DNA of 64,000 nucleotides from Halobacteriales archaeon YIM A00010 (GTDB taxonomy: Archaea; Halobacteriota; Halobacteria; Halobacteriales; Haloarculaceae), in the NCBI GenBank assembly GCA_025041175.1, contig JAKCFJ010000004.1:496001-560000 (forward strand), in the 5' to 3' direction. Below are positions 7,450 through 61,660 of this stretch, one piece after another (position 1 is the stretch's first letter; each line of letters starts with the position of its first letter). Position numbers and translations under genes: made by a program. The notes under the pieces were generated by a model, which was not told where the DNA came from, ran no database searches, and saw only the letters and a list, made by a program, of their open reading frames with translations.

Positions 7450-7599
7450 TCCCTCTGCTAGTAGATATCACGCACCGGTGTTCTTTGAGTATCGGAGGAA
7501 TGAGAGATCAGTGCGTATCGATTTACGTCCGGTGATACTAGAATCGAACCTTCGGCTGCGCGCAGTGCTTTTACTTCGTTTCGACCGATACCGGTACGC

Positions 7600-8493
7600 A
7601 TGGACATACTCGTAGTGGGAGGCGATGGGTTCGTCGGTCGGCATCTCTGTGCTGCACTCGCAGACCGTGGTCATGATCTCGCTGTGCTTTCGCGGACACC
7701 AGATGCGTCGGTGCTTCCCGACGGAACGGAGACCATCAGCGGGGATGTGCGCTCGTACGACTCGATCAAGCACGCGTTCGGCGGTCGAGACGCCGTCGTC
7801 AATCTCGTGGCATTGTCACCGATGTATCAGCCGGCGGCGGACACGAGCCATGAGAAGGTTCACGTTGGTGGGACACGAAACGTCGTCGGAGCCGCCAGAG
7901 AACAGGGGGTGGACAAACTCGTGCAGATGAGTTCGGTAGGAACGAAGCCGGACGGCGCGACCGGTTACATCCGTGCAAAGGGACAAGCGGAGTGGGTCGT
8001 CCTCACCGCAGATCTCGATGCGGTCATCCTCCGGCCAAACATCATGTTCGGTGACGAGGACGAGTTCACGAACTTCATCAACCAAACCACGCTACCGTAT
8101 ATGACGGCGCTTCCTGGCGGAGGTAAGACACCGTTTCAGCCGCTCTGGGTCGGTGACACGGCTGCAATGGCGGCCGAGGCCACCGAGGCGAATCGACACC
8201 GCAATGAGATCTACGAACTTGGGGGGCCTGAAGCATTGACGGTAGCCGAGGTAACGAAGTTGCTCTATCAGGCACGGGGACAGTCGGTTGTGATCCTCCC
8301 GGTTCCGATGAAATTCGTCGAGTGGGGATTACGCGCCATCTCGCCGATTTCGTCCATCCCGTTCGGAGCTGATCAGGCACGGATGTTACACCTCGATCTG
8401 AAGAGCGAGAGGAACGACCTCGCTGCGTTCGACCGCAGTGAGGATGATCTCACGACACTCGAAGCGTACTTCCAGACCAACAGCGCGATGTAG
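7600..8493 (+). CDS. NAD(P)-binding epimerase-like protein (complex I NDUFA9 type)
   Basis: A 297-residue extended short-chain dehydrogenase. The N-terminal Rossmann motif is GGDGFVGRHL (7-16). The usual NAD-binding acidic turn follows (GDVRSYDS), then VVNLVALSP and the substrate-region motif QMSSVGTKPDGATGYIRAKGQAE, where the catalytic Tyr-x3-Lys appears as YIRAK. These sequence features place it among NDUFA9-like atypical SDRs, which in haloarchaea are generally of unknown substrate. The C-terminal part (TVAEVTKLLYQARGQ) is the family's small substrate-binding lobe. It is monocistronic, starting at ATG 7600. The next gene is about 200 bases away. Confidence 0.9.
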   Translation: MDILVVGGDGFVGRHLCAALADRGHDLAVLSRTPDASVLPDGTETISGDVRSYDSIKHAFGGRDAVVNLVALSPMYQPAADTSHEKVHVGGTRNVVGAAREQGVDKLVQMSSVGTKPDGATGYIRAKGQAEWVVLTADLDAVILRPNIMFGDEDEFTNFINQTTLPYMTALPGGGKTPFQPLWVGDTAAMAAEATEANRHRNEIYELGGPEALTVAEVTKLLYQARGQSVVILPVPMKFVEWGLRAISPISSIPFGADQARMLHLDLKSERNDLAAFDRSEDDLTTLEAYFQTNSAM

Positions 8494-56489: not shown

Positions 56490-57011
56490 ATTTATCCAAG
56501 GTTTAGAACAGGCCCCGTGAGAGCGTTTCAAGCCCGCGCAGCGACTGGCCATAATCGACTAGTGGATCCCACCGGTGGGTGACTCCCGTGAAGAGATCTT
56601 CACAACCTGCTGGCCGCGGCCCTCGAAAAAGTCCACGAACTCATTTGTCTCGCTAGCCTCCGAGAGCGCATGCGCGATCACGGCCCCCTTGAAATCCCGC
56701 TGCTCAAGGCGGGCCTTCACGAACGATGTCTTGCCGTTACCCGTCTGCCCCAGCACCATACACGAGACATCGTCATCAAGCGACGGTGTCACCGGTCCCG
56801 CTGGATCGCGTTTGTCGATCCGTTCAACGGGAATATCACTGTCTGAGAGTTGGGAGCGAATCGACTCACCCATCCCCGTCGGTTCATACTGCTCGCGGCC
56901 CGACGTTGTCTGGATTGATGACTGCGATCGGAACAGCCACCACCCGAGCGCTACACCAAAACATAGTCCCCACACCCACAGCGAGAGGCGATCGAATAGC
57001 AACAAAACCAT
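56490..57011 (-). pseudogene. VirD4/TraG-like conjugation ATPase, truncated
   Basis: From ATG 57011: two hydrophobic stretches (VLLLFDRLSLWVWGLCFGVA), a linker, and a Walker A motif in CMVLGQTGNGKTSFVKARLE, then VDFFEGRGQQVVKISSRES. After a one-base shift at about 56575 it reads HRWDPLVDYGQSLRGLETLT, then GPVLNLG and a stop, which continues the family (normally KISS...RWNP). Walker B and all downstream motifs are absent. Intact haloarchaeal coupling ATPases exceed 600 residues. It marks an integrated or decayed conjugative plasmid. Confidence 0.7.
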
Positions 57012-57421
57012 TCCTAGTAACTCCTATATGATTACCATCAAATAGGTTATAAATCATGCGCCGAAAAAAGATGAAGGCGATACTTTCGGTGCTCCATCCA
57101 GACCACTCCTGGCATGTTTCCGCCCATTCCGCCCTCGTCGACGAGGACGTGGTAATCTTTGCACCCGTTGAGTACCTCTCAATATCCAGTCCGTGTGCGT
57201 CTCCATGTCTCCCAAAGCACTCATCGTTGTACCTGACTTGTGCCGAAAGGAACGAAGACGAACAAGAGGGATGTAGAGTAGTGATCACAGATATTTTCAT
57301 TATATAATAACTCCAAAAGACATCCCACCCCTATAAGTTATTATCGTATATGTCTTCTTGTTAGTATATTATTCAATAATCAGATATTGATATTTATATA
57401 TATCAGTATATAGCCTAGCAT
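57012..57421. other. AT-rich spacer with one weak ORF
   Basis: Divergent promoter region between the VirD4 relic and the excalibur gene. An 83-codon frame from 57056 (MRRKKMKAILSVLHPDHSWH onward) is uncertain. 57300-57420 is very AT-rich. Confidence 0.35.
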
Positions 57422-58180
57422 ATGGATTCCAAGACCGGACATCTACTGACTCTGCCGGGGTTCCACCAAAACAAGCCAAGAAGGAACGCCATCGTTGCCC
57501 TATCTTATCTGGTCGTCTTTACAGTTTTATTAGCAATTACAGTCTATTTACTCCCACTTATATGTGGCTTAGCTCTTGGTACCAACTACCGAGGGAGCGC
57601 CGATCGCCTCTCTCGATTGCCGGGAATCCAGAAGAACGGTGGGACGGTTACCACCATCGGTGGGTTTGGGTATGGTCTTGTCGTTCCCATTCTCGTCATC
57701 GCCCCTGGTGGGAGTCCGGAGACAGCCAGTCCCGCAACCAATACGACCGAAACAGGGACACCGACACCAACAATGACTATGACACCACCGCTAGCAAATA
57801 CTCCCGTCCCAACACCGACGTCGACTCCATCTCCAACGACCATGACGACAACTGTCGTGAGTTCTCCGCCCCCCACAGAAACACCGCCACCATCCACCCC
57901 AACACCGACATCATCCACACCAGAAACAACAAGGGAAACCCCTGAACCAGCTCCAACTCCGACGACAGACACACCAGCTTCCGTCCCACCAACGACGGAG
58001 CCATCGACCCCCGATGACTCGGTTGATCTCCCACCACCAAGCGGAGGCTCAAGTGATCCCTATGATTGTTCGGACTTTGATACCCACGAACAGGCCCAGA
58101 CTGTCCTTGAAGAGACACCTGGCGATCCATCGGGATTGGATCGAGATGGCAATGGCATCGCGTGTGAATCACTTCAGTAA
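57422..58180 (+). CDS. Membrane-anchored excalibur calcium-binding protein
   Basis: A 252-residue protein. One helix (about 24-51, [20 protein letters not shown]) is followed by a short region, a possible second hydrophobic stretch (85-95), and then a Pro/Thr-rich linker of about 120 residues. The C-terminal excalibur domain reads [20 protein letters not shown], then [18 protein letters not shown], with the DxDxDGxxC calcium loop and two cysteines. In bacteria excalibur domains sit on cell-surface or nuclease-like proteins. It lies 24 bases upstream of the membrane-anchored Mrr gene, suggesting a shared transcript. Confidence 0.9.
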
Positions 58181-58204
58181 ACGACGAACGTTCACATCAA
58201 TACA

Positions 58205-59116
58205 ATGACAACCACACACGATTCAGATACGCTACTCGACCAGTTGCAAACGATGGATGCCAACTCATTCGAATCATTCGTCGGTGAGCTCTGGGAGCGA
58301 CAGGGATGGACCACGACGGTCTCGCAACTCAGTAATGATGCTGGCATTGATGTCGTCGCAACGAAAAATGATCCGTTCGATCAAAAGCACCTCATTCAGG
58401 CAAAACGTTATGGACCAACGACAACTGTCGGGAGTCATGATATCCAACAATATGCGAGTCTTAAACAGCAAGTGCCCGACGCAGACGTGGTTGTGATAGT
58501 CACGACAAATCGATTTACCACTCACGCACGGGACCGGGCGACCGAGCTGAATGTCAAACTTATCAACGGAAACGAACTCATCGCACTTATCGATGAAGCT
58601 GATGCCTATGATCTCCTCGAAACCTATCTCAATACGACTGAAACCACATCCCGTCCGCCACAGATTCCGAGTCCAGATCAACAAGAGCGCTCCACGTATG
58701 AGCGAGTACAGGAAGCAGCGAGAGGATTTTCATGGGGAGACATATCTGCGGACGTATATCTCGGGTTTATCTTGATTGGCACCATCGCCTGGTGTATTGG
58801 TCTTCTGTTCGGGATTGCTGGTGTCAATGGTGTCTTTATTGGCAGGGCTGCTGGTGTCGTAGCAATTAATAGTTGGATCATCCTTCCGGTTGCCCTCTAC
58901 TATGAGGCAGCTCGTCTGGCTGAAGCAACTGCGTGGGCACCACAAGAAATGCTATATGCTGTTGGTGGTGGCATTCCGTTTGTGAATGCCATCGTTGGCG
59001 GATACTATCTCTACCGACGGCGACAGACATGTCTGGCTGAAGAGAACGAAGAACTTCTCGTTATAGAACGACGAGATGCGGCGGCTTCCCGTGAGGAAGA
59101 TCAACAGCGGCGGTGA
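58205..59116 (+). CDS. Mrr-type restriction endonuclease with C-terminal membrane helices
   Basis: A 303-residue protein. The N-terminal Mrr_cat domain reads MDANSFESFVGELWERQGWT, then VSQLSNDAGIDVVATKNDPF and DQKHLIQAKRYGPTTTVGSH, with the PD-(D/E)xK residues in GIDVVA and IQAKRY. It is followed by VVIVTTNRFTTHARDRATEL. A linker precedes three hydrophobic helices (about 190-212, 216-236 and 253-271). Mrr enzymes cut modified DNA; membrane-bound archaeal members are uncharacterised. The excalibur gene is 24 bases upstream. It may be a defence pair, but this is inference. Confidence 0.88.
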   Translation: MTTTHDSDTLLDQLQTMDANSFESFVGELWERQGWTTTVSQLSNDAGIDVVATKNDPFDQKHLIQAKRYGPTTTVGSHDIQQYASLKQQVPDADVVVIVTTNRFTTHARDRATELNVKLINGNELIALIDEADAYDLLETYLNTTETTSRPPQIPSPDQQERSTYERVQEAARGFSWGDISADVYLGFILIGTIAWCIGLLFGIAGVNGVFIGRAAGVVAINSWIILPVALYYEAARLAEATAWAPQEMLYAVGGGIPFVNAIVGGYYLYRRRQTCLAEENEELLVIERRDAAASREEDQQRR

Positions 59117-59535
59117 AATTTCAAAAATACCCACAAAGTAATCTGACATTCTCCCACGGCCAACCCGTGCAGTTCTCCCACTGGAGATTGAATACACAGA
59201 CCCGGAGCGAGTCTCAACAGCCTTGGGGTGCAGAAGGTGAGCTTGGCTAACTCAGTGTAGAGTAAGAGTGCTCTCTCCACGTTGTTGTTCTTGTCTCCGA
59301 TACTCATCTTCGACTGTTTTGTCGAAGTTTCGTTGCGCTTCACGCAACCGCTTGACTTCAGTTTGGTATCGACTAGGGTACATCTGGAACCAACGTCGGG
59401 CATCGTTTACGGCTGTTGTGTGGTCGCTTCAATCCGACTAGAGTACATCTGGATCCCATAGTATACGAGATGACAGAAAAGCCACCAAAGTATGGTTCAC
59501 GAAACATATACATATAACCACACGGTAACACTACT
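59117..59535. other. Relic region with short charged ORF
   Basis: On the minus strand 59252-59383 encodes 43 residues (MYPSRYQTEVKRLREAQRNF, then DKTVEDEYRRQEQQRGESTL), helical and coiled-coil-like; coding pattern continues upstream (HTTAVNDARRWFQ), so it is probably the end of a lost gene. A 22-base sequence, CGACTAG(A/G)GTACATCTGGA(A/T)CC, occurs twice, at 59370 and 59435. Confidence 0.4.
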
Positions 59536-61076: not shown

Positions 61077-61660
61077 TTAGAGAGAGTTGGGCAATCTAAT
61101 GAACGGCGCTGTCTCGTATATGTCTCGAAGTTCGCTATTTGAACGAGCTTCTCTATCTCGGAAACAACGCCGCGCACGGCCATTCGAATGCAGAATCTTA
61201 TGGTACTTGTAGAACTCGCATAAGCAGTTCTGGGTGTTTGCTAACGACAACTCCAACCAGCTTCCATCTTCTGTCTCAAGATAGGGGAACTCTATGTCCA
61301 AGCAGTCGAACTCCTGCTGTTGATTCTGGCGGAGCCACCGCATCACATCAAGACGGTCAAACCCGTTGAACTCCATGACAAGCTGTTTCAATCCCTTCTG
61401 TGCGCCCGGTCCAGAGGATGATCAGTCGTCCGGAGAAAATGGAAGGACGGAATCGCCATCATAGTAGTCAACGGGATACAGCAGATCAATCAAGACCTGA
61501 TATGAGAGGAAATTCCCGAATCCTGGCTGGGACCGGATCAGGTCGTAGGAACCTGCTAACGACTCGACCGAGAGCATATCATCGAAGAACGTCGGATTGT
61601 TGGTGATTTTCTCGAAAAGCGCGACCACGTTCTCAACTTTATCAGAGGACCCCGAACGGG
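61077..61660 (-). pseudogene. Alpha-glutamyl/putrescinyl thymine pyrophosphorylase-like relic
   Basis: Leftward in one frame: NVVALFEKITNNPTFFDDML, then SQPGFGNFLSYQVLIDLLYP, SVLPFSPDD, an in-frame TGA at about 61423, then SSSGPGAQKGLKQLV, LELSLANTQNCLCEFYKYHK. This matches the phage/archaeal family annotated as alpha-glutamyl/putrescinyl thymine pyrophosphorylase clade 3 (GVG.FLAYQ...DL, GPGA..G, D.E..LCE..KY). The N-terminal half is missing and a stop interrupts the rest. The family is tied to DNA thymine hypermodification in phages. Confidence 0.65.

Follow-up and report, generated by a model that had tools for sequence, protein, structure and literature searches.

Two adjacent same-strand genes on contig C4 of a 5.97 Mb haloarchaeal genome (G000) encode a membrane-anchored Excalibur protein (ORF1, 252 aa) and a membrane-anchored Mrr-type nuclease (ORF2, 303 aa), and they constitute a real, selected, genus-restricted operon-like unit in which known domain types appear in a new combination. 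The 24 bases separating the stop codon of ORF1 from the start codon of ORF2, as given in the original prediction for the 64,000-nucleotide stretch analysed here (hereafter the window), were confirmed (Table 1). A TATA-like element (TTTATATAT) upstream of ORF1 is the same in Halocatena pleomorpha (G042), the nearest named relative of G000 among the genomes compared, and its position points to an operon transcript without a leader. No second TATA-like element was seen between ORF1 and ORF2 when the sequence was read by eye, and this single element, together with the 24-base gap, argues indirectly for co-transcription. As far as can be read from sequence, the pair is best seen as an operon that might serve DNA handling or restriction at the cell envelope, defence being one of several readings. 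In the open PMC literature, no paper was found that joins Excalibur with an Mrr restriction endonuclease or that treats calcium-binding Excalibur in haloarchaea, and a query for an Excalibur domain with a nuclease returned an unrelated match only.

Table 1. Features of the locus, in positions of the window
Feature	Position	Strand	Basis
Truncated type IV coupling protein (TraG/TraD/TrwB type), front part, divergent from the pair	56559..57011	-	Pfam on the G043 homologue
Block common to G000 and H. pleomorpha (G042:C27), 88.5% identical, 2.5 kb, flanks unrelated on both sides	56786..59304	.	blastn, genus DNA search
Likely archaeal TATA box TTTATATAT, 29 bases 5' of the ORF1 start codon	57393..57401	+	Inferred by reading the sequence
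ORF1 (252 aa), Excalibur protein with membrane anchor at aa 1-97, Pro/Thr stalk at ~98-210 and Excalibur domain at 215-249	57422..58180	+	
Anchor module (hydrophobic hairpin, loop, helix); haloarchaeal display domain with many ectodomains	57422..57712	+	
Excalibur Ca2+-binding domain with both cysteines and a DxDxDGxxCE-type loop	58064..58168	+	
ORF2, membrane-anchored Mrr_cat nuclease, 303 aa	58205..59116	+	
Mrr catalytic domain (PD-(D/E)XK)	58244..58591	+	
C-terminal membrane region, two strong and one weaker helix, end YLYRRR, common to membrane-anchored Mrr homologues	58742..59023	+	

Domain architecture of the two products

The description of ORF1 as a membrane-anchored Excalibur protein with a long Pro/Thr linker is borne out by its hydrophobic helices (aa 23-41 and 76-94), by a stalk in which 66 of 111 residues (aa 100-210) are Pro or Thr, and by a match to the Excalibur family (PF05901) at aa 215-249, which in the genome scan scores 25.6 bits, above the cut-off, and in hmmscan 21.9 bits, just short of the cut-off of 22. 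Within the Excalibur loop an Asn replaces the third Asp, as in other aligned Excalibur sequences, and the first cysteine lies in a DCSDF motif. On account of the charge distribution of the anchor (+3 at the N-terminus, +3 in the loop and -20 in the outer part), the Excalibur domain is predicted to lie outside the cell. A SNase domain was found neither in ORF1, by Pfam search, nor anywhere in the window (best E 0.84), and a plasmid search with ORF1 as the query gave no match.

There is no support for the idea that this domain senses calcium. In the only case with a solved structure described in the available portion of PMC5137146, that of the pneumococcal protein CbpL (PDB 5J8T), Ca2+ folds the Excalibur domain, which fits a structural role. 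ORF1 resembles CbpL, as presented in that portion, in its two cysteines and its DxDxDGxxCE-type loop, but differs from it in having the Asn at the third Asp position, in being an archaeal stalked membrane protein and in being without a choline-binding module. Further, in brine the Ca2+ site would be constantly filled, and hence a structural role is likelier than sensing.

ORF2 contains Mrr_cat at aa 14-129 (90.7 bits) with the D...QxK catalytic residues of Mrr-type enzymes: E23, D49, A66 and K67 are invariant in 12 aligned homologues, and Q65 is conserved in 11 of the 12. As to the three C-terminal helices ascribed to it, two are strong (180-198 and 201-219), whereas the third, near 247-270, is weaker and is present in homologues. 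The catalytic domain most likely resides in the cytosol, since there is no signal peptide and the domain precedes its helices; the charges do not settle the cytosolic side, those of the loops being near zero, with YRRR after the last helix. Beyond the catalytic domain, ORF2 consists of a linker and the membrane region. All Pfam families above the cut-off are nuclease-domain families; neither Mrr_N nor SRA nor any other recognition domain is among them, and the statement that Mrr enzymes attack modified DNA is therefore not transferable to ORF2.

AlphaFold models attained a mean pLDDT of 50.8 without relatives and 61.0 with one relative, with block means of 59-88 across the modelled Mrr core (aa 11-140). 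This modelled core appears to resemble MspJI and AspBHI, both of which are modification-dependent enzymes. Dedicated parts of the latter two read modified bases, and these parts have no counterpart in ORF2. Without them, the Mrr domain might act on whatever DNA is kept close to the membrane; alternatively, ORF1 or some other protein might guide it. A sequence search of the PDB returned 0 matches.

Two known kinds of protein offer comparisons with ORF2. It shares Mrr_cat and the conserved D...QxK with Mrr/type IV restriction endonucleases such as the Haloferax volcanii Mrr (HVO_0682), but, unlike that type, has no N-terminal recognition domain, its catalytic domain being N-terminal and its membrane region C-terminal. 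The H. volcanii enzyme limits transformation with methylated plasmid, according to the accessible parts of PMC6471742 and PMC7776575. The second is COG4741, which, in the available text of PMC1189080, is proposed to be a membrane-associated guardian against foreign DNA and, like ORF2, comprises an archaeal PD-(D/E)XK domain tied to the membrane and predicted to face the cytosol. However, as described there, COG4741 has a YraN-like domain with one N-terminal helix, whereas ORF2 has Mrr_cat, C-terminal helices and an Excalibur partner. Among the PADLOC-DB models, PDC-S02, mREase_IV and Zorya ZorD match ORF2 in its nuclease stretch only and none matches ORF1; filing the pair under a PADLOC system was rejected, as there is no full-model match and the partner genes are missing.

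Linkage and selection within Halocatena

The genus set comprised seven Halocatena genomes (G000 and G039-G044), counted as six lineages since G040 and G041, which give identical match coordinates, were merged into one. By its own account, the original prediction would be refuted if the two genes were never found together elsewhere; it is not refuted in this way, for the pair is also present in H. pleomorpha and, in diverged form, in G041/G040. Neighbour statements here rest on tblastn against DNA because a codon-based gene caller missed such genes, both the Pro/Thr-rich anchor-stalk ORF of G041 and, as a neighbour, the window's own Mrr.

G000 and H. pleomorpha share the block listed in Table 1 and, apart from it, one further match of 113 bases by blastn. 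Within the block, the ORF1-ORF2 gap of H. pleomorpha is likewise 24 bases, and the non-coding stretch upstream of the pair is 88.4% identical over 622 aligned bases. Comparison of codons between the two genomes reveals 11 synonymous and 0 replacement changes in the 42 codons of the Excalibur domain, as well as a dN/dS of 0.12 for the Mrr catalytic domain (0.06 for Mrr aa 1-72), from which it follows that both genes are under purifying selection. The ratio is 0.29 for the membrane part of Mrr and 0.31 for the stalk, and the anchor is fast-evolving (0.70). The H. pleomorpha Mrr gene is frameshifted as deposited, within a run of seven G. This was rejected as proof of decay, given that the assembly derives from Ion Torrent data (IonXpress) and a sequencing error is equally likely in such a run.

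In the G041/G040 lineage the Mrr is 46% identical to that of the window and the anchor 56% identical over 79 residues. A 285-aa same-strand ORF of G041 with the anchor and a Ser/Thr/Pro stalk is followed by 303 bases and then by Mrr; the genus DNA search and direct reading that recovered this ORF led to rejection of the earlier candidate views that the pair is a one-off and that the G041 Mrr stands alone. Past the stop of the ORF, in another frame, an Excalibur-like stretch scores 4.9 bits, a value equalled by 2 of 2000 shuffles, and a DNA-level search for an Excalibur relic there gave no significant match; the Excalibur part of this copy looks broken or decayed. The Mrr of the same lineage reads IRAKSY where the other 11 aligned sequences read IQAKRY, and it is possible that Excalibur and Mrr have been relaxed jointly. 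Loss of both parts would fit a joint function, as a single case (n=1).

Remnants extend to a fourth lineage. In the genus DNA search, G043 was seen to lack the pair but to keep that end of the block which holds the coupling protein, at 92% over 486 bases, and to carry elsewhere ~300 bases from the 3' end of Mrr (78%). The latter, at L230 ~7595-7698 (G043:C3), is without the rest of the gene and is a decayed copy of the cassette. The Mrr tree does not fix the order among G041, G184 and the G000/G042 clade and hence does not decide whether the pair had a single origin.

These patterns bear on a serious rival explanation, itself rather unlikely in our estimation, under which two unrelated accessory genes came to be neighbours on a conjugative plasmid and are co-inherited, with each working alone, the membrane-anchored Mrr as a stand-alone membrane restriction enzyme and the Excalibur protein as a surface protein. 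The linkage persists across a deep split (Mrr 46% identical), in all three Halocatena lineages with such an Mrr, and the 24-base gap is kept in the close pair G000/G042, which argues against mere passengers. On the other side, the G043 coupling-protein end without the pair, the position of the block beside a coupling-protein relic with unrelated flanks in G000 and G042, and the separate neighbourhoods of each gene in other haloarchaea all favour it.

Distribution across haloarchaea and association with mobile DNA

In scans of 391 genomes of the class, Excalibur was found in at least 31 and Mrr relatives (E <= 1e-10) in at least 131, these counts being lower bounds because only part of the first-look candidates was scored; a family scan of 146 genomes gave 14 and 45, respectively. 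Both families occur in at least 10 genomes of the class scan, and are adjacent by HMM in G000 and H. pleomorpha only. At 53 Excalibur places drawn from the family and class scans (an ORF with two domains being counted once, and G040 not being counted in addition to G041), tblastn with Mrr located an adjacent Mrr, besides the window itself, only in H. pleomorpha. Conversely, none of 26 Mrr loci outside Halocatena had the anchor nearby by tblastn, which covered several kb of flanking sequence where the contig was long enough, and Excalibur genes elsewhere have other neighbours. Thus the neighbourhood statistics proposed as a check on the pairing show it recurring in three Halocatena lineages and not outside the genus, and as far as seen the pair is a Halocatena feature. 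Another Mrr_cat gene (L082:11524-12180, G043:C5; 218 aa, 29% identical) lies ~4.5 kb from a short Excalibur ORF.

The conjugation relic pointed out near the pair is real: the G043 homologue of the truncated gene, a long ORF, contains the Pfam domains TraG-D_C and TrwB_AAD_bind and is a TraG/TrwB-type coupling protein. This protein is cut to 150 aa in G000 and to ~75 aa in H. pleomorpha. The pair, lying next to such a remnant, was probably carried by conjugative DNA and probably retained when the coupling protein was lost. The intact homologue (L229, G043:C5:102000-120000) is on a contig with apparent cas1, cas2 and other CRISPR genes, judged by eye. The neighbouring hypermodification relic is likewise genuine, a decayed DNA-hypermodification gene being represented at 61077-61628 (-) by two pieces of the helical domain of a 5-hmdU DNA kinase (HMUDK_hel).

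This setting might indicate that the pair serves a conjugative or viral element as an exclusion module, blocking competing DNA (entry or superinfection exclusion). The coupling-protein gene adjoins the pair in the ancestral block, and membrane-anchored Mrr homologues are found ~3 kb from a phage integrase in G184 and in a tailed provirus. Set against this, the coupling protein is truncated in both G000 and H. pleomorpha while the pair is kept, and a comparison with PHROGs, the collection in which viral relatives of ORF1 were sought, yielded one weak match; such a function is accordingly very improbable.

Possible DNA handling at the cell envelope

Among the 53 haloarchaeal Excalibur genes, 30 are fused to SNase, and in three more the closest ORF upstream encodes a SNase, which in G000:C7 and G000:C4:206722 shares the strand of the Excalibur gene and in G043 lies 1.2 kb away on the opposite strand. 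Four SNase-Excalibur proteins share their anchor module with ORF1. This module, without a Pfam match of its own, was found in 60 of the 391 class genomes with a nine-row profile at E <= 0.001, many of the near-limit matches being short and doubtful. A set of 30 anchor proteins was assembled from 28 of 30 fetched loci (L258, with SNase by tblastn, and L261 being omitted as their ORFs were not clear) and two known paralogues. By Pfam, 8 of these carry Excalibur, 6 SNase, 3 a lamin-tail domain and 2 DUF4352, the first three counts agreeing with custom profiles, and these and other ectodomains are borne on low-complexity stalks. Given such varied ectodomains, the anchor is a general display module and not a defence marker.

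The pair might alternatively be a variant of the haloarchaeal surface nuclease pathway of the SNase-Excalibur, HVO_1477-like kind, in which DNA is food: the stalked Excalibur protein would capture external DNA and the membrane Mrr would trim or screen DNA as it enters. ORF1 shares the Excalibur domain with the Bacillus YokF-type surface SNase-Excalibur nucleases but, unlike YokF/HVO_1477-type nucleases, has no SNase domain, the nuclease being the separate Mrr protein. Additionally, Mrr catalytic domains are cytosolic restriction-type modules and are not known as scavenging enzymes. Both points weigh against this pathway, which is decidedly improbable, even though haloarchaeal Excalibur genes are largely surface-nuclease genes, some with the same anchor, and a SNase with a weak Excalibur match lies ~3.1 kb from the pair's Excalibur gene in H. 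pleomorpha. Further support comes from HVO_1477 itself, a SNase/lamin-tail lipoprotein homologous to YokF, which is needed for growth of H. volcanii on DNA according to the accessible text of PMC3929857; the same text reports that this organism uses methylated DNA poorly and does not grow on fully methylated E. coli DNA.

The explanation we favour, tentatively and at somewhat below an even chance, is that of one Halocatena-specific operon, spread with mobile DNA, whose products lie on the two faces of the membrane and cut DNA at entry. On its long stalk, ORF1 would present the Excalibur domain, stabilised by Ca2+, to the cell exterior; as the surface partner it would bind DNA, another surface protein or the surface layer. 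ORF2 would tether an Mrr-type PD-(D/E)XK nuclease to the membrane, most likely on the cytosolic side, and would cut incoming plasmid, viral or environmental DNA during or just after membrane crossing. The two products would be expected to interact physically, with entering DNA as the presumptive substrate and defence as a presumptive role. The SNase-Excalibur surface nucleases and the provirus copy of the membrane-anchored Mrr fit DNA handling at the envelope. Together with the MspJI/AspBHI-like core as modelled, the 24-base gap, the G041/G040 pair and the purifying selection, they were counted in favour of a unit; counted against it were the restriction to one genus, the lack of a recognition domain, the topology of Mrr, the H. 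pleomorpha frameshift, the fast anchor and the want of a PADLOC model. A further step is distinctly unlikely: here DNA would be intercepted across the membrane by a stalked Excalibur protein outside and a membrane-bound Mrr inside, the two having evolved in Halocatena from surface SNase-Excalibur nucleases by swapping a secreted nuclease for a membrane restriction nuclease; if true, DNA would be encountered outside the cell and cut where it enters.

Should the pair work as a unit, a restriction-type nuclease would be coupled to a surface protein and act on DNA just as it enters the cell, a stage little studied in archaea. Independently of the pairing, two poorly described haloarchaeal families come into view, namely the membrane-anchored Mrr nucleases and the display anchor for nucleases and other ectodomains. 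Membrane-anchored Mrr proteins occur without the anchor in many haloarchaea. One relative (L217:5956-6807, IMG/VR IMGVR_UViG_2913406730_000001; 283 aa, 43% identical) is encoded directly behind genes that by eye are tail- or baseplate-like in a haloarchaeal tailed provirus, a typical place for an exclusion gene. Others, of ~660-740 aa (L144:5265-7484 and similar proteins in G434, G191, G398 and G446), have a repeat-like C-terminal extension of ~400 residues, which in the one scanned has no Pfam match. In G000 itself, an Excalibur paralogue with a duplicated anchor (L071:5861-7804, G000:C7) is located 129 bases behind an HVO_1477-type SNase/lamin-tail gene.
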